Part shown: one piece after another, positions 49,804 to 63,428 of the stretch
Layout: each line of letters starts with the position of its first letter
Position numbering within the stretch: position 1 is the first letter of the stretch
NCBI RefSeq assembly: GCF_002733835.1
Contig: NZ_NVWY01000014.1
Location: 1-64,000, forward strand
Origin: Alcanivorax sp.
Lineage (GTDB): Bacteria > Pseudomonadota > Gammaproteobacteria > Pseudomonadales > Alcanivoracaceae
Direction: 5' to 3'
DNA length: 64,000 bases
Translations under genes and position numbers: made by a program
The notes under the pieces: generated by a model
Seen by the model: the letters and a program-made list of their open reading frames with translations, nothing else
Told to the model about the DNA's origin: nothing
Database searches by the model: none

Positions 49804-49955
49804 AATTAATAATGAATAGTTAATAATTAATAATGCGCGATCAAAATTAAGGGTTTTCCGCCAATGATGCCCTCGCTCAAGCCTGTTCGCGGCCTCTCAC
49901 CGCGAAGAAATGAGTACGCCTTAACGCGCAGCTATTAACTATTAATTATTAACTG
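49804..49955. repeat. Palindromic AT-rich intergenic element, copy 2
   Basis: Arms of AGTTAATAATTAATA type with CGCG ends (49804-49839 and 49925-49955) enclose a TTCGCGG / CCGCGAA hairpin. The layout resembles 23871-24026. The stop codon of the neighbouring endonuclease-family gene lies in one arm. Confidence 0.7.
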
Positions 49956-50848
49956 ATCAAAGGCAGCCTGTGCTCCATGGTCGCCGAAATCACGTCGTCC
50001 GGCACAATGATTTCCGTGGCCAAAGGCAGATGGTCCGACAGCAGGCAGTCGGCGAGCACACGGGTGTGGCGACTCTCCAACTCCGGCGACAACAGGATGT
50101 GGTCGATATGACGATCCGGGGCCCAGCTGGGATAGGTATTGAGGTTATCCGCCTGCACCGTCTGCAAGCCCAGGGCTGCCAGCGGCGAATTGTCCAGATG
50201 ATCCAGGCGACAATTGAAATCGCCCATCATCACCACGTACTTATAGTCCGCCAGCAAACGGGCCAGGTAGGACAACTGGGTATTGCGCACCTTCTCACCC
50301 AACGCCAGGTGCGCCACGACCACAACCAACGGCTGAATCGGGTGACCGTACTTGATCACGATGGCGCCGCGACCGGGCAAGCCGGGCAAACGGTGATCGG
50401 TGATTTCAAACGGTTGGTGGCGACTGAGAAAGCCATTACTGAACTGGCCAAGGCGGCCAAGATTGCGGTTCAACTGCTGGTGCCAGAAGGGAAAATCCGC
50501 CATGGAGGCCAGGTGGACCAGCTGGTTCATGTTGCGCGAACGCAGGCTTCCGCCATCGACTTCCTGCAGACCTACCACGTCGAAGTGGCTTAGTACCTCG
50601 GCAATCTGTTCGATGGTTTCCACGCTGCGCGGATGCGCCACCAGATGCTTCCAGCTCCCGGTAATGTAATCACCGAATTTCTGGCTGCCGATACCCGCCT
50701 GGATATTGAAGCTCATCAGCTTCACCGTGTCAGGGAGCAACACTTCCCGTGTCTGACGGGTTTTCCTTACCCCCTCCCTTGCGAAGGAAAAGCCCGCAGG
50801 GCGGGCTTTCCAGTCACGATAGGCAAGTCTTGCGCGATCAAGCAGCAT
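49949..50848 (-). CDS. Endonuclease/exonuclease/phosphatase family protein
   Basis: A 299 aa metal-dependent hydrolase of the DNase-I-like fold. Motifs are LMSFNIQAG, VGLQEVDGGS (Glu), VVVVAHLALG, MMGDFNCRLD and LSDHLPLATE with the late catalytic His. It follows dsbA with a three-base gap, the same neighbour order as around polA in Pseudomonas. Substrate unknown. Confidence 0.9.
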   Translation of the reverse strand: MLLDRARLAYRDWKARPAGFSFAREGVRKTRQTREVLLPDTVKLMSFNIQAGIGSQKFGDYITGSWKHLVAHPRSVETIEQIAEVLSHFDVVGLQEVDGGSLRSRNMNQLVHLASMADFPFWHQQLNRNLGRLGQFSNGFLSRHQPFEITDHRLPGLPGRGAIVIKYGHPIQPLVVVVAHLALGEKVRNTQLSYLARLLADYKYVVMMGDFNCRLDHLDNSPLAALGLQTVQADNLNTYPSWAPDRHIDHILLSPELESRHTRVLADCLLSDHLPLATEIIVPDDVISATMEHRLPLIS

Positions 50849-52996: not shown

Positions 52997-53641
52997 ATGC
53001 CCATGCACCCCATGGAAAAAATGCTCCACCAGGCCCTGTTCCTGCAAAGCGCCCAGCGCCTGGACCAATGCCCACCCGATGAAGGGCTGGAAGTGGCCTT
53101 TGCCGGGCGCTCCAACGCCGGTAAATCCAGCGCTATCAACCGGCTCACCGGGCAACGCACCCTGGCTCGCACCTCTAAAACGCCGGGCCGAACCCAGCTA
53201 TTGAATTTCTTCCAGCTGGACGAAGAACGGCGCCTGGTGGACCTGCCCGGTTACGGCTATGCCAAAGTCTCCAAGTCCAAGCGCAATGAGTGGCAGGAAC
53301 ACCTGGATCATTATCTCTCCGAGCGCCAGGCACTGGTGGGCCTGGTATTGATGATGGACATCCGCCACCCCCTCAAGGACTTCGACCTGCTGATGCTGGA
53401 ATGGTCAGCCCAGGCCAACATGCCTATCCACATCCTCATGACCAAGGCAGACAAGCTGAAGTTCGGCGCCGCCAAGTCCACCCTGCTGCAAGTGAAAAAG
53501 CACCTCAAGGAGCATCCGGCACCGCTGTCATTGCAACTATTTTCGGCTACCAATGGCACCGGCTGTGACGAAGCCTGGGACAAGTTGGGGGAATGGCTGG
53601 AGATAGGGACAGACGTCGAACGTCAGACGCCGGACGACTAG
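52997..53641 (+). CDS. engB: Ribosome biogenesis GTP-binding protein EngB (YsxC)
   Basis: A 214 aa TRAFAC GTPase needed for large ribosomal subunit assembly. ATG 52997 starts just before [11 protein letters not shown]; the longer frame from 52871 is spurious. G motifs: GRSNAGKSS (G1), KTPGRTQ (G2), DLPGYGYA (G3), TKAD (G4) and FSATNGTG (G5 region). In Pseudomonas and E. coli it is next to polA with a small RNA between, and here a tandem RNA element follows. Confidence 0.95.
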
Positions 53642-53701
53642 GCCACCTTTTAGCGTCAGACCTCCGACTTCGGACGTCCGACTTTTCTACAGACAAAAAA
53701 A

Positions 53702-53843
53702 TCCCCGGCAGCAATCTTGGGGGAAGGGAACGATTGCGCTGCCGGGGAGGCTTGCCACCCTGGCCTCTTTGGGGGAAAAAACCAGGGTTATACAGCGACG
53801 GATCGGTGAGGGTACTGGGGGATCGGGGTTCCAATCCGTCGCT
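53702..53843 (+). ncRNA. Structured RNA element, copy A (three GGGGGA stem-loops)
   Basis: Three hairpins follow each other: TCCCCGGCAGC / GCTGCCGGGGA (53702-53748), ACCCTGG / CCAGGGT (53757-53788) and CGACGGAT / ATCCGTCG (about 53796-53842). Each loop region contains GGGGGA. Copy B at 54116 has the same plan with compensatory base changes. The strand is set by the GGGGGA loops and by the terminator of copy B. No promoter is clear for this copy; TTCTACAGAC with an A run lies just before it. Confidence 0.65.
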
Positions 53844-54040
53844 ATGTAGTGAGAGTGCCCTTTTCTGGAAAAAGTTCCAGCCCCCGAAAGTATTTTTCTT
53901 CCCAGCTGTCGATCTGCGTCACAAAACTGGCGCGTTACGGCACACCCGTCCTACCCCTCAGCAGACACAATACGTTCGCACCCTCGTATAAAACGGATAT
54001 CTCACTGATCAATAACGGGTAATTGGCGCAAAGGCAAAAC

Positions 54041-54056
54041 TGGCATGGGGCTTGCT
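54041..54056 (+). promoter_or_regulatory. Sigma-54-type promoter before RNA copy B
   Basis: TGGCATGGGGCTTGCT matches the -24/-12 consensus TGGCACG-N4-TTGCW with one mismatch, and GG and GC are ten bases apart. Transcription would start near 54067, about 50 bases before the first stem. Confidence 0.65.
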
Positions 54057-54066
54057 TATTCTTTAA

Positions 54067-54304
54067 CCAACAGGCCGAATAACCTGTGGCCGGCAGAAAT
54101 GCCGCGCAAAAAAAATCCCTGGCAGCAATCTTGGGGGAAGGGAACGACTGTGCTGCCAGGGAGGCTTGCCGCCCTGATTTCGGGGGAGAAATCAGGGACT
54201 CCAAAAGACTACGGATCAGCGAGGGTACTGGGGGATCGGGGGTGCCAATCCGTAGCTATTGATTAGGACCGCCGCTTTTTTCGGAAAGTTCCAGGCGGTT
54301 TTAT
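54067..54304 (+). ncRNA. Candidate small RNA, copy B, with promoter and terminator
   Basis: Predicted from the sigma-54-like promoter to the terminator, about 238 nt. Stems are TCCCTGGCAGC / GCTGCCAGGGA (54116-54162), CCCTGATTTC-GGGGGA-GAAATCAGGG (54172-54197) and CTACGGAT / ATCCGTAG (54209-54255). In each stem bases that differ from copy A change on both sides. The GGGGGA loops resemble GGA motifs that bind CsrA/RsmA, which is an inference. Confidence 0.7.
54268..54304 (+). terminator. Terminator of RNA copy B
   Basis: ACCGCC and GGCGGT enclose a loop with its own GGAAAGTTCC pairing, followed by TTTTATCTTTT. Confidence 0.7.
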
Positions 54305-54375: not shown

Positions 54376-54708
54376 TTACTGCTTCCACGGCTCTCCCCGC
54401 GTGCCTTTCATCCGCTTCAGCTGCCGGTGCATGGCAGCCTTGGCCAGCATATGCGCAGACACCGGCGCGGTGATAAACAGGAACAGGGTAATCAGCACCT
54501 CATGCAGCTGCAGCCCGCGTTCCTGCCAGGAAAAAAACAGCAACGACGCCACGATGGTGCCACCTACGCCCAGGGTGGTGGCCTTGGTGGGGCCGTGCAG
54601 CCGGGTATAGAAATCCGGCAACCGTGCCAACCCAATGGATCCCACCAACGCAAACACGCCACCAATAATCACACTGGCTGACACCAGCCATTCAATCAGA
54701 GAATCCAT
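54376..54708 (-). CDS. mrpG: Na+/H+ antiporter subunit G
   Basis: A 110 aa membrane subunit of the Mrp complex with three segments. It has FYTRLHGPTKATTLGVGG, the core MrpG motif, and a Lys-rich tail. It is the last gene of the operon. The complex exchanges Na+ for H+ and supports pH and salt tolerance. Confidence 0.93.
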   Translation of the reverse strand: MDSLIEWLVSASVIIGGVFALVGSIGLARLPDFYTRLHGPTKATTLGVGGTIVASLLFFSWQERGLQLHEVLITLFLFITAPVSAHMLAKAAMHRQLKRMKGTRGEPWKQ

Positions 54709-57026: not shown

Positions 57027-57361
57027 GAACGGCCTCCGTCATCCGGTTTGCCATCCACATGGTCGTTATGCAGCTCGCCCTGGCTACGCAGGGCCAGCAC
57101 CACCAGGAACGCGGTCATCGCGAAACCAATCACGATGGCAGTCAGCACCAGCGCCTGGGGTAGCGGATCGGTGGGGTCCGGACTCATGCCAACCACCGCC
57201 ACCTGATTTATTTTCAGCCCGCCCATGGCGAACAGGAACACATTCACGCCATAACTCAGCAGCGTCAGGCCCATGACCACCGGGAAAGTCCGTGCACGCA
57301 GGCACAGGTACACCCCGGAGGCCACCAGCACACCAATAATGATTGCGACCAGCAGTTCCAT
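57023..57361 (-). CDS. mrpC: Na+/H+ antiporter subunit C
   Basis: A 112 aa NuoK-like subunit with three membrane segments and the motif DPLPQALVLTAIVIGFAMTA. The start touches the end of the fused A subunit (one-base overlap). Confidence 0.93.
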   Translation of the reverse strand: MELLVAIIIGVLVASGVYLCLRARTFPVVMGLTLLSYGVNVFLFAMGGLKINQVAVVGMSPDPTDPLPQALVLTAIVIGFAMTAFLVVLALRSQGELHNDHVDGKPDDGGRS

Positions 57362-60165
57362 CAGGCGTTCTCCCTCTTGTCATCCAGCAGCGACAGCTTG
57401 CCCAGGTTGGCCAGCATCAGCAGCGTTGCCCCCACCACAGTGAGGAACACCCCGGTGTCGAACAGCATGGCCGTGGCCAATTCAAATTTACCGATCACCG
57501 GCAGAGACACATAAGTAAAGGAACTGGTCAGGAACGGGTAATCAAAGACCCAGCTTCCCACCCCGGTCAGCCCGGCCAACAACACGCCCATGGCCACCAC
57601 CGGGTGGTAGTCCCCGGGCATGCGGCTATGCACCCACCCCACCCCGGATGCCACATACTGCAGCACCAGCGCCACCGACGTGATCAACCCGGCCACGAAG
57701 CCGCCACCGGGCAGATTGTGCCCGCGCAGGAAAATATACACCGCAATCAGCAGCGCCAGCGGCAACAAGGGCCGGGAAATGGTCACCAACACCAGCGGAT
57801 GCGCATCCGCAGCCCAGGGGCGCCCCAGCGAGTCGTACTTGGCCGATGCCAGGTTCAGATCCTTGAGCAGCGCATAAATACCCATGGCGGCAACGCCCAG
57901 CACGGTGATTTCCCCGAAGGTATCGAAGCCCCGGAAATCGACCAGAATCACGTTGACCACATTGGTGCCGCCACCACCAGACTTGCTGTTATCCATAAAG
58001 AACTGGCTGATGGTTGTGGTTTCCCCGGTCATCACCAGGAAGGCCAGCACCGCCACACCGGCGCCCACAACAAGCGCCAGCAGCACATCGCGCAACACCC
58101 GCACCGACGACGATTCCACCTGGGTACGCACCGGCAGGAAGTACATGGCCAGCATTAGCAGCAGCATGGTGACCACCTCCACCGATAACTGGGTCAGCGC
58201 CAGATCCGGCGCCGAGAAGCGCACAAACAGCAGTGACACCATCAACCCCACTACACTCAACGACATGATCGACGTCATCCGGTGGCGGTGCAGGAACGTG
58301 GTCAGCAGGGCCGCCGCCACCAACATGGCGGTACACAAGATCGCCACCCCATCCATAGGCAACATGCCCACATCCAGGCTCAGCGCCGGCAGATGCCACA
58401 TCTGGGTAAGCAGAATCACCGCCACCAGCGTGACCGCCCAGGCCACATAACTCTGTAGCGACCCGTTCTGCAGCCGCCCGGTAATGGCACTGGCCACCCG
58501 CCCCAGCTGCTGAATTCGCCCTTCGAACACCAGTTTGGCATCCACCTCGGGCAAGCGCGCCCACAGGTCAAACAAGCGGCGACGCTGGGAATAGATAAAG
58601 ATGCCACCGAACAGGGCAATAAAACTCATCACCAGCGGCAAATTAAAACCATGCCAGATCGCCAGGTGGTATTCCGGCAAGTCGCCGCCCAGCGTGGCAG
58701 CCGCCGCCACCGCCAGCAGGCCCGCCACGGTGATCGCCGGAAACACGCCCACCGCCACACACAGCGCCACCAGAATTTCCACCGGCACCTTCATGTAGCG
58801 CGGCGGCTCATGGGGCGGGTACTTGGGCAGGTTTACCGGCTCGCCATTAAAAAACACGTCATGGATAAAACGCGCCGAATAGGCCACCGAGAACACCCCG
58901 CCCAGGGTGGCACCCAGGGGCAGCAACCAGCTCAGTGCGCCCAGCTGTTCAGACTGCAAAGTCTCGGTAAAGAACATTTCCTTGGACAGGAAGCCATTAA
59001 GCAACGGCACCCCGGCCATGGCCGCCGACGCCACCATGGCCAGCACTGCCGTATAAGGCATGTACTTCCACAGGCCGTTAATACGACGCATGTCCCGGGT
59101 ACCGGTTTCGTGATCAATAATCCCCGCCGCCATAAACAGGCTGGCCTTGAAGGTGGCGTGGTTGATGATATGGAACACCGCCGCCACGGCGGCCATCTCG
59201 CTGTTCAAACCGAACAACAGGGTAATCAGCCCCAGGTGGCTGATAGTGGAATAGGCCAGCAGGCCCTTCAGGTCATGCTGGAACAGGGCCACAAAGGCCG
59301 CCCACAACAGCGTCATCATCCCGGCCAGGGACACCAGCATGAACCACAGGTCGGTGCCGGCCAGGGCCGGGTATAGCCGCGCCAGCAGGAACACCCCCGC
59401 CTTCACCATGGTGGCAGAGTGCAGGTAGGCACTCACCGGCGTGGGTGCGGCCATGGCGTGGGGCAGCCAGAAATGGAACGGGAACTGGGCGCTCTTGGTG
59501 AACACTCCCAGCAGCACCAGACACAGGATCACCGGGTACCAGCTGCTGGCGCGGATCACATCGCCGCTTTCCAGTACCGTCTGCAGGCTGAAGGACCCCA
59601 CCACATTGCCCATCAGCAGCACACCGGCCAGCAGGGCCAGGCCGCCCATACCGGTCACGGTCATGGCCATGCGCGCGCCCTTGCGCGCCCCGGTCTGGTG
59701 TCCCCAGAAGCCGATCAGCAGGAAGGAACTGAGGCTGGTGAGCTCCCAGAACACCACCAACAGCAGCAGGTTGTCACTGGTGACCACCCCGAGCATGGCG
59801 CCCATGAAGAGCAACAGATAGGCATAGAAGCGCCCGGCTTTCTCCTTGGCGGAGAGGTAATAGCGGGCGTAGAGAATCACCAGCAGGCCGATGCCCAGCA
59901 CCAGCAGGGCAAACAGCAGTGCCAGGCCATCCAGGCGGAAGGCCAGCGACAGATCCAGCGAGGGAATCCAGCGCAGGGTGCTGTGCAGGGTTTCCCCGGC
60001 AAACACCTGGCGAGCCGGGTTAAAAAGCAGTGCCAGCGCCAGGGCCGGCAACGCCGCCGCCCCGCAGGCCAGCAAGGTGCGGTTCCCCGTCACGCGTTCC
60101 ACCAATGGTGGCAGAAACGCACCCAGAAAGGGCAACATCACCACAAAGGCAAGATTCATAGTCAA
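57361..60165 (-). CDS. mrpA: Na+/H+ antiporter fused subunits A and B
   Basis: A 934 aa protein. The NuoL-like A part (residues 1 to about 790) has [23 protein letters not shown] with the conserved Lys region and [16 protein letters not shown]. The C-terminal part (about 795-930) is the MrpB domain: [22 protein letters not shown]. Fusion of A and B is typical of group 2 Mrp operons, as in Pseudomonas. First gene of the operon. Confidence 0.94.
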
Positions 60166-60423: not shown

Positions 60424-60592
60424 ACCTGTAGGAACACCTCTTGAGGTGCGAACCGAGCGCCAGCGAGGCGGCACTCTTGCCGTCCACCCGCACAGGCCCA
60501 AATAATACGGCACCGCCGGCCAGCATCACCCACCGCCGCCGGTTTACGTTGCCCCTCACCGGGTTCGCACCTCAAGCGGTGCTCCTACAATT
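60424..60592. repeat. REP-like inverted pair between mrp and polA
   Basis: CTGTAGGAACACCTCTTGAG (60426 on) and its inverted partner ending GGTGCTCCTACA (to 60590) bracket about 110 bases. It is the TGTAGGAGC family in inverted orientation. The rest of the 500-base gap 60166-60665 shows no gene. Confidence 0.7.
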
Positions 60593-60665
60593 ACCCCCCG
60601 CCCTGCCGAATCCCGCCATTTCCGCTACACTCTCCCCACTCACTCATCAGCAGAAGCCGAACACC

Positions 60666-63428
60666 ATGTCCGCAGCCGAAAAACCCATCATCCTCGTCGA
60701 TGGCTCCTCCTACCTGTACCGCGCCTTTCACGCCCTGCCGCCGCTCACCACCTCCAGCGGCCAACCCACCGGGGCGGTGCGCGGGGTAGCGGCCATGCTG
60801 CGCAAGCTGATGAAGGACTACGAGCCGGAATACATGGCGGTGATTTTCGACGCCAAGGGCAAGACCTTCCGCGACGAACTGTTCGAGCAATACAAATCCA
60901 ACCGCCCGCCCATGCCCGACGACCTGCGCGAACAGGTACAACCTCTGCACGACCTGATCCGCGCCATGGGCCTGCCGCTGATCATTGAAGAAGGCGTGGA
61001 AGCGGACGACGTGATCGGCACCTTTGCAAGCATCTTCGGCGAGCAGGGCAAACCGGTGCTGATCTCCACCGGTGACAAGGACATGGCCCAGCTGGTCAAC
61101 GACAAGGTCACCCTGATCAACACCATGAACGACGCCCTCTACGACATCGACGGCGTGATCAAGAAGTTCGGCGTGGGCCCGGAACTGATTATCGACTTCC
61201 TCGCCCTCATGGGCGACAAGGTGGACAACATCCCCGGTGTCCCCGGCGTGGGCGAGAAGACCGCCCTGGGCCTGATCCAGGGCCTGGGCTCGCTGGAAAC
61301 CATCTACCAGAACCTGGACAAGGTGGCCGAGCTCAGTTTCCGCGGCGCCAAGACCCTGGGCAAGAAACTGGAAGCCCACAAGGAGCAGGCCTTCCTCTCC
61401 TACAAACTGGCCACCATCAAGCTCGACTGCGAACTCAGCGAAGACCAGGACGACCTGAAACTGCAGACTCCGGACGCGGAAAAACTGGCCGAGTACTACC
61501 GCCAACTGGAATTCAAGGGCTGGCTCAGTGAACTGCTGGGCGGCAAGGACCCGGTGGCCGAAAGCGCCGGCGCAACGGTGGAACTGGCCGAGGACGACGG
61601 CCCCAGCGCCGGCTTCAGCCGCGACGCCTACGACATCGTCTACAGTGAGGCCATGCTCGACAAATGGCTCGACAAGCTCAAAGCCGCCGGTGAATTCGCC
61701 TTCGACACCGAAACCACCAGCCTCAACTACATGGACGCCCAACTGGTGGGCGTCTCCGTGGCCGTGGACGACAAGGCCGCCTATATTCCCTTCAGCCACA
61801 ACTACCCGGGCGCCCCGGATCAGCTGCCCAAGCAACGGGTGATGGACAAGCTCAAACCGCTGCTGGAAGACGACAACATCAAGAAGATCGGCCAGAACCT
61901 GAAGTACGACATGAGCGTGCTGGCCGAAGATGTGGGCATCACCCTGCGCGGTGTGGCCTACGACACCATGCTGGAATCCTACGTGCTGGATTCCGTGGCC
62001 ACCCGCCACGACATGGACTCCCTGGCGCTCAAGTACCTGGGCCGCAAGACCATCAGTTTTGAAGAGATCGCCGGCAAGGGCGCCAAGCAGCTCACCTTCA
62101 ACCAGGTGGGCCTGCACGAAGCCAGCCGCTACGCCGCCGAAGACGCGGACGTGACCCTGCGCCTGCACCAGACCCTGTGGCCCAAACTGGAAGCCGAAGG
62201 CCGCCTGCCAGACGTGTTCCGCGACATCGAACTGCCGCTGGTCACCGTGCTCAGCCGCATCGAACGCAACGGCACCTATGTGGATGCCACCCTGCTCAAG
62301 CACCAGAGCCAGTTCCTGGCCAAGCGCATGGTGGAACTGCAGGAGAAGGCGTTTGAGATCGCCGGGCAGGAATTCAACCTGGCCAGCCCCAAACAGCTGG
62401 GCGAAATCCTCTACGAAAAACTGGACATCCCGGTCATCAAAAAGACGCCAAAGGGCGCGCCGTCCACCGCCGAAGCGGTGCTGCAGGAACTTGCCCTGGA
62501 ATACCCCCTGCCCCAGGTGATCATGGATTACCGTGGCGTAGCCAAACTGAAGAACACCTACACCGACAAACTGCCGGAGCTGATCAACCAGCGCACCGGC
62601 CGCGTGCACACCTCCTACCACCAGGCGGTGGCCGCCACCGGGCGTCTGTCCTCCAGTGATCCGAACCTGCAGAACATTCCGGTGCGCAGTGAAGAAGGCC
62701 GCAAGATCCGCCAGGCCTTCCTCGCCCCCAAAGGGCGCAAGATCGTCGCCTGTGACTATTCCCAGATCGAACTGCGCATCATGGCGCACCTGTCCGGCGA
62801 CAAGGGCCTCACCGATGCGTTTGAAAAAGGCCTGGATATTCACCGCGCCACCGCCGCGGAAGTGTGGGGCAAGACCCTGGAAGAAGTCAGCGACAACGAC
62901 CGCCGCAACGCCAAGGCCATCAACTTCGGCCTGATCTACGGCATGAGCGCCTTCGGCCTGGCCAAGCAACTGGGCCTGCCGCGCAAGGAAGCCCAGGACT
63001 ACATCGACCTCTACTTCGAACGCTACCCGGGCGTAAAACGCTACATGGAAGAAACCCGCGCCCAGGCCTCCGAGCAAGGCTACGTGGAAACCCTGTTCGG
63101 CCGCCGCCTCTACCTGCCGGAAATCCGCAGCAGCAACGGCCAACGCCGCCAGGCCGCCGAACGCACCGCCATCAACGCCCCCATGCAAGGCACCGCGGCG
63201 GACATCATCAAGATGGCCATGATCAAGGTCCACGACTGGCTCGACACCACCGACTTTGATGCCAAGATGATCATGCAGGTACACGATGAACTGGTGTTTG
63301 AAGTGGCGGAGGATCAGGTGGAGGATCTGGTGAAAGAGGTTAAGGAACGCATGGAGTCAGCGGCGGAACTGAAGGTGCCGTTGATTGTGGATGCGGGGAT
63401 TGGGGAGAATTGGGATGAGGCGCATTGA
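60666..63428 (+). CDS. polA: DNA polymerase I
   Basis: A 920 aa family A polymerase from ATG 60666; the longer frame from 60441 has no ribosome binding site. Residues 1-290 form the 5'-3' exonuclease ([18 protein letters not shown], then [18 protein letters not shown]). The 3'-5' exonuclease (about 330-510) keeps the catalytic pair in FDTETT. Polymerase motifs A ([18 protein letters not shown]), B ([15 protein letters not shown]) and C ([11 protein letters not shown]) are intact. It works in repair and Okazaki-fragment processing. Confidence 0.97.

Follow-up and report, generated by a model that had tools for sequence, protein, structure and literature searches.

In a 64,000-nt stretch of genomic DNA (hereafter the window) from Alcanivorax sp., a marine, oil-degrading bacterium, we identified two tandem, separately promoted elements on the minus strand beside engB, which we interpret, with a probability of roughly 85%, as trans-acting sRNAs that are probably sigmaE (AlgU)-dependent and that are homologous to Pseudomonas ErsA, at the same engB-side site (Table 1). 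Both carry a covarying three-hairpin structure, a minus-strand terminator and a conserved sigmaE-like promoter motif; the surrounding gene order is syntenic with that of relatives, and the motif recurs beside engB in other families. The homology assignment draws on weak reciprocal model matches, the shared site and promoter type, a gene order found in 6/6 Pseudomonas loci, and the polA layout retained in genus g4 of the Alcanivoracaceae. The original prediction had read these elements on the plus strand; the promoters, the terminators, the folding energies and the 5' end published for a relative point instead to a minus-strand transcript, and this strand error is put right here, as the wrong strand would misdirect experiments.

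Table 1. Features of the sRNA region in the window. R1 is a covariance model built from Alcanivoracaceae only.
Feature	Position	Strand	Details
sRNA copy 2, engB-distal	54108..54257	minus	~150 nt; predicted +1 at 54257 (A of AGCUACGG); 3' U-run ends at 54108
sRNA copy 2, homology			homologous to L018:1652-1501, which begins at genome position 4758272 (published 5' end)
sRNA copy 2, R1 score			165.8 bits; copy 2 sits in the R1 seed
sRNA copy 1, engB-proximal	53695..53843	minus	~149 nt; predicted +1 at 53843
sRNA copy 1, R1 score	53694-53843		159.6 bits; copy 1 also in the R1 seed
Copy 2 sigmaE-type promoter	54264..54292	minus	-35 GGAACTT 54292-54286, 17 nt, -10-like TCCTA 54268-54264; -10 set by eye
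Copy 1 sigmaE-type promoter	53850..53878	minus	-35 GGAACTT 53878-53872, 17 nt, -10-like TCTCA 53854-53850; -10 set by eye
Hairpin 1	copy 2 54208..54256; copy 1 53795-53842	minus	loop with ACCCCCGAUCCCCCAGUACCCUC; coordinates counted from alignment
Hairpin 2	copy 2 54172..54197; copy 1 53758-53787	minus	CCCCC loop; coordinates counted from alignment
Hairpin 3 (intrinsic terminator)	copy 2 54108..54162; copy 1 53695-53748	minus	loop with UCGUUCCCUUCCCCC, then U8 (copy 2); coordinates counted from alignment
engB (GTPase)	52997..53641	plus	Pfam MMR_HSR1; convergent neighbour, synteny anchor
mnhG, last gene of Mrp/Mnh antiporter operon	54376..54708	minus	Pfam PhaG_MnhG_YufB; upstream of both sRNAs, same strand

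The two copies are ~80% identical (blastn), and each, read on the minus strand, comprises a GGAACTT box starting 35 nt before the +1, three hairpins with C-rich loops, and a GC hairpin followed by U7-U8, with the terminators of both copies facing engB. Minus-strand folds are strong against shuffles (z = -4.8 and -5.8 for the two copies), bearing out the original prediction of a tandem structured RNA with three stem-loops per element. That prediction had also noted paired positions changing together between the copies: in the copy-vs.-copy alignment, columns 7/56 read G-C in copy 1 and U-A in copy 2, terminator-stem columns 117/157 read C-G in copy 1 and U-A in copy 2, and several pairs of stem 2 differ. 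Comparison with related genomes, which it had proposed as a check, yielded both synteny and covariation, with 24 of 32 pairs changed on both sides across 41 Alcanivoracaceae copies (38 distinct rows). This alignment, A2, holds 41 of the 49 copies (left out are both copies of L005 and of L012, and those of L023, L024, L026 and L028); 95.7% of its cells are paired, rising to 99.8% in hairpin 3, and sliding the partner columns by 1-3 positions lowers pairing to 27-49%. None of 500 shuffles reached any of five covariation measures, an excess that is partly built in as the structure was drawn from the same alignment.

Mean column entropies show the loop of hairpin 1 to be more conserved than its stem (0.21 vs. 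0.61), as is that of hairpin 2 (0.70 vs. 0.92), with the order reversed in hairpin 3 (loop 0.38, stem 0.25), and the linker around GGCAAGC has a mean entropy of 0.12. In a minus-strand copy ~400-230 nt 3' of engB in L028 (G022:C151), hairpin 2 is apparently doubled inside one sRNA, giving two hairpins in succession that each have a UUCCCCC loop, a hint at modular amplification of C-loop hairpins.

The transcript itself is already known, since the published 5' end of sRNA4758272 coincides with the predicted +1 in a relative: in G029 (4,928,223 bases), which we take to be A. dieselolei B-5 with the coordinate fit in support, R1 matches positions 4758121-4758272 on the minus strand, 4758272 being the exact predicted first base. 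This sRNA is among 549 dRNA-seq candidates in A. dieselolei B-5, each named by its 5'-end coordinate, and is described as lying between genes for a ribosome-biogenesis GTP-binding protein (EngB-like) and Na+/H+ antiporter subunit G (mnhG), with two copies in some species (PMC9788540). Its strand comes from our R1 match rather than from the accessible text of PMC9788540, and the same portion of that source says nothing about its family, structure, function or type of promoter, or about a link to ErsA. G029 holds one copy, compared with two in the window. In the open-access literature searched on ErsA, Pseudomon-1, Alcanivorax sRNAs and Marinobacter, we found no report linking Alcanivorax with ErsA, and Pseudomon-1 appears in the accessible part of PMC2864571 as a table entry, 'Pseudomonadales'. 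What is new here is that the published Alcanivorax sRNA is most likely an ErsA homologue; an experimentally detected RNA is thereby given a probable identity and a class of promoter, along with a role that can be tested.

The original prediction had considered the sequence unlike ErsA and proposed an Rfam scan. At the gathering threshold, no Rfam family matches the 64 kb window; under relaxed settings the best match is nonetheless Pseudomon-1/ErsA itself (RF01719), to copy 2 on the minus strand (24.9 bits vs. a cut-off of 50, E = 0.015), with copy 1 absent from the RF01719 matches among the 12 Rfam matches at E <= 10. Searching 244 genomes of the order with RF01719 returned 33 matching genomes at E <= 0.1, nine above the cut-off, all from family f21 (presumably Pseudomonadaceae), and 24 below it. 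A bridging relative within the Alcanivoracaceae, G017, reaches E = 1.2e-5 (37.6 bits) at a place overlapping the one found by blastn with the window element, and scores 98-110 bits to R1, in whose seed it is included; together with synteny, this match supports homology against the earlier impression. The sRNA4758272 place in G029 is also matched (E = 0.084), and the window's own genome has no RF01719 match in the order-wide search, which used faster, stricter filters. Among 30 loci fetched from 39 listed RF01719 places, 22 hold engB and/or polA, with the match lying opposite engB in 14/16 loci and on polA's strand in 19/19. Three matches 3' of engB lie on its own strand (L129 and L136 with RF01719, L151 with R1); they are either spurious or represent the gene in flipped orientation.

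Reciprocally, R1 gave 36 matches at E <= 1 on 100 loci. Across 71 of the 78 named engB loci outside the family, it gave 21 matches at E <= 1, of which 17 fall on the strand opposite engB in the first 500 nt beyond its 3' end (binomial P = 1e-22), a zone making up 3.1% of the sequence as computed on all 78 loci, including the seven not searched (L068, L069, L075, L086, L093, L097, L103); one of the counted matches (L079) begins 30 nt inside the engB alignment. In the nine f21 loci above the RF01719 cut-off, R1 matches seven weakly (L111, L112, L115-L119; E = 0.0075-0.3), the L115 match being shifted, and finds none in L113 and L114. Order-wide, 14 of 244 genomes match R1 at E <= 0.01, ten of them Alcanivoracaceae and four from family f39; one f39 locus (L151) contains both engB and polA, its match sharing the strand of engB, and the other three contain neither gene. 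Class-wide, two of 274 genomes match at E <= 0.001, the window's own and G386, the latter outside the order, where the match (L266, G386:C33:41382-41499, plus strand) immediately follows polA and is preceded by a sigmaE-like promoter.

Because the RF01719 cut-off is not reached, we treat the window sRNAs as homologues that would work like ErsA, rather than as formal members of that family. They share with ErsA/RF01719 the position 3' of engB on the opposite strand, the left-hand gene order, a sigmaE/AlgU-type promoter motif, C-rich loops and a terminator hairpin. They differ in scoring below the curated cut-off, in their two tandem copies, in having the mnh operon rather than polA at the right, and in their strong 5' hairpin, whose C-rich loop is long and conserved; the first 33 positions of the RF01719 consensus, in contrast, show no pairs. 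C-rich hairpin loops, a feature of sX13, are also shared with the low-scoring matches to sX13 (RF02232, 13.6 of 50 bits) and anti-hemB (RF02837, 20.8 of 49.5 bits), both far under their cut-offs. Spot 42 has the position facing engB in common with the window sRNAs, the E. coli order being polA-spf-engB; it is CRP-controlled, not sigmaE-controlled, and its family (RF00021) is absent from the 12 Rfam matches at E <= 10.

Gene order agrees with the original prediction that the site resembles that of Spot 42/ErsA. The window reads endonuclease (49949-50848), dsbA, cytochrome c4, a small cytochrome c and engB, and this order, with its orientations, is the same in the 6/6 Pseudomonas loci examined (L035, L039, L053, L066, L073, L079), where polA then follows on the minus strand; the engB protein is 54-87% identical to the 80 relatives kept. 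The window sRNAs lie 3' of engB on the opposite strand, as does the RF01719 match in the f21 loci holding engB. In the window, polA is not the next neighbour, as the mnh operon intervenes and polA lies at 60441-63428 on the plus strand. In five Alcanivoracaceae loci from genus g4 (L020, L022, L024, L025, L027), polA instead lies past the sRNA and shares its strand, with mnhG not found in the stretch available for each; their sRNAs match the window element by blastn at E = 1e-27 to 2.5e-40. As the polA-sRNA-engB layout thus occurs inside the Alcanivoracaceae, the mnh neighbour looks like a later change. The window's polA is oriented opposite to that of Pseudomonas and genus g4, which suggests that in Alcanivorax the polA-sRNA-engB block was broken up by an insertion or an inversion. 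The first mnh gene (57361-60165, minus) is a 934-aa ORF, which by its length and the usual gene sizes we presume to be a fusion of MnhA and MnhB.

These observations bear on the strongest alternative, in which the same sRNAs, under the same sigmaE control, are independent genes that, as Spot 42 may have done, arose at a permissive polA/engB site, and that acquired C-rich loops by convergence. Covariance-model scores between the groups are low, and C-rich hairpins with a terminator can by themselves raise chance scores, as the low-scoring anti-hemB and sX13 matches illustrate. Against this, flank, promoter type and terminal hairpin are common to several families, as mostly is the strand, intermediates exist in G017 and in loci of families f8, f35, f39 and f41, and genus g4 keeps the polA-sRNA-engB layout, so that we consider convergence improbable. 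The ErsA-homology reading can be extended to an ancient sigmaE-controlled sRNA gene at the polA/engB junction, inherited across Pseudomonadales and beyond, of which ErsA is only the Pseudomonas branch and which elsewhere underwent repeated tandem duplication and gained extra C-rich hairpin modules to become a general envelope-stress silencer of G-rich ribosome-binding sites. We regard this wider proposal as an even bet; its reach beyond Pseudomonadales is suggested by the one match in another order adjoining polA. The results also suggest that the ErsA family as catalogued covers a small part of a far older envelope-stress RNA.

The promoter motif is conserved. Upstream of 50 nhmmer matches (49 copies), GGAACTT occurs exactly in 40, with one mismatch in eight, with two in one and with four in one, the last row (L028 at 1431) being half of a split match; exact boxes begin at -32 to -35, compared with an exact box in 0.25% of shuffled upstream regions, and the -10 elements, judged by eye, are of the GTCNTA/TCTNA kind. 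Motifs such as GGAACTT and GTCNTA are typical of sigmaE/AlgU, and the window's genome encodes an RseA_N-type anti-sigma factor as well as Hfq. As a sequence motif, the sigma22/AlgU-type promoter characteristic of RF01719/ErsA is present and conserved in the Alcanivoracaceae copies. Exact GAACTT is found at 19 of 30 matched places vs. 2.8% of shuffles (with RF01719 coordinates used for L113-L115). Using no RNA model, we further scanned engB loci outside the Alcanivoracaceae for the strict pattern GAACT[ACT]-N14-18-GTCNNA, a motif picked after the earlier promoter counts. It lies <=450 nt beyond the 3' end of engB and opposite to it in 24 of 76 loci (two of 78 being too short), and on engB's own strand in 0/76; the remaining sequence of these loci gives an expectation of 0.005 per locus. 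Synteny combined with the promoter may reveal such older ErsA-like genes where sequence models fail.

The same promoter counts weigh against the reading that the elements derive from the 3'UTR of the mnh operon transcript, or act as its terminators, and are not sRNA genes in their own right. The sRNAs do lie downstream of mnhG on its strand, and their U-run hairpins would end mnh transcripts too, but a separate GGAACTT-like box precedes almost all copies at a fixed distance, and in the five g4 loci, where mnhG was not found, the same-strand gene beyond is polA, which is often the neighbour outside the family as well. We therefore judge an mnh origin very unlikely.

Strand decides the remaining alternative. 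The original prediction took the GGGGGA loops as a sign of a CsrA/RsmA-binding titrating RNA; these are indeed seen on the plus strand, but the loops of the transcript carry CCCCC, with GGA in stems, and CsrA/RsmA titration is for this reason not supported. The agreement of promoter, terminator, fold energy and published 5' end indicates a minus-strand transcript, and the plus-strand poly-A ahead of each element is explained by the poly-U of the minus-strand terminator. Our consensus promoter and terminator scan, which covers sigma70 and not sigmaE, found no sigma70-like promoter on either strand; with this coverage, and with a terminator rule allowing loops of 3-8 only, it is uninformative here. 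A plus-strand titrator, for which the GGGGGA loops and the plus-strand fold of copy 2 (z = -3.2, better than 199/200 shuffles) could be cited, is the least probable reading of all, given the near-chance plus-strand fold of copy 1 (z = -1.3), the poly-A start and absence of a poly-U end, the sigma70 scan, and the naming of other RNAs, CsrR1 and CsrR2, as CsrA-related in the accessible text of PMC9788540. An RsmZ/CsrB-type sRNA was accordingly rejected on strand, GGA not being found in the transcript's loops.

Copy number varies across the family. By blastn, the element has a match in 33 of 36 family genomes, the exceptions being G023, G028 and G031 (64-89% complete), and in 0/21 genomes belonging to the order's other families. 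Each of the 16 same-genus relatives gives two matches, those of G005 and G008 lying at contig ends on different contigs, so that the tandem order is not seen there. A FastTree phylogeny of A2 places the genus's 13 distal copies in a single clade (support 0.79), and the proximal copies branch close to it as several groups, a pattern consistent with a duplication that predates the genus split. The second copies of L020, L027 and L125 branch in other parts of the tree and could be older, or separate from that duplication. Outside the family, four loci (L123, L124, L130, L137) carry tandem sigmaE-like promoters, two or three of them, near polA/engB, and tandem ErsA-like genes may have arisen several times in the order.

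For ErsA, the available parts of the literature describe transcription by sigma22/AlgU and repression of algC by pairing at its ribosome-binding site with Hfq (PMC6321483, PMC8395346), repression of oprD and stimulation of amrZ (reportedly Hfq-independent) and anr (PMC6321483, PMC8395346, PMC5819304, PMC8575079), and call ErsA a functional orthologue of Spot 42 (PMC8395346). By analogy, the window sRNAs are most likely envelope-stress blockers of G-rich ribosome-binding sites. Envelope stress would lead sigmaE/AlgU to transcribe both copies, whose conserved C-rich loops could pair, with Hfq, with G-rich Shine-Dalgarno and start-codon regions, and such pairing would block translation in the way that ErsA does on algC; two copies might provide a higher dose or divide the targets between them.

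We examined candidate targets by loop pairing. The algC orthologue in G000 encodes 799 aa with PMM/PGM domains (best PDB match 1k35), in the order dfp-dut-algC-argB (by Pfam, argB being called as 'amino acid kinase'), and its start region has a G-rich Shine-Dalgarno (CGGAGGGGAUAUGGGG). Its loop-pairing energy ranks 1-9, by copy and stretch, among 264 start regions (356 kb of G000, from a home-made gene finder with predicted start codons), and reversed loops rank it 4th. In eight algC start regions, 5-90% of shuffled versions of loop 1 outperform the real loop, which in most genomes does no better than they do, and loop 3 beats 87-99% of shuffles in all eight (16 loop copies, from closely related genomes; for L210 the sRNA loops were taken from sister-genome rows, L008). 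In one genome, 16% of background genes do as well as algC on loop 3, for which algC is 38th of 264 by shuffle fraction. On the reversed-loop and shuffled-loop controls, algC pairing is mainly a matter of base composition, leaving algC a candidate target, a reasonable guess from ErsA rather than a result.

Other gene groups gave a range of values. Extended complements of loop 1 show no excess in the window's own genome (51/50 vs. 53/49 for the reversed control). Long AlgC-type genes (8 loci) have z-scores of -2.7 to +0.1, strong by energy and largely a composition effect, and short PMM/GlmM genes (22 loci) have z-scores of -1.2 to +2.0. For FadL-type transporter start regions (30 loci), z ranges from -2.2 to +1.4 vs. 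shuffles, with six of 30 at -1.4 or below. Four of these six (L175, L177, L178, L180) share one look-alike purine-rich start region (AGGAAGAGGGAGAG), with a predicted energy of -21.9 kcal/mol to loop 1, and form a possible target group.
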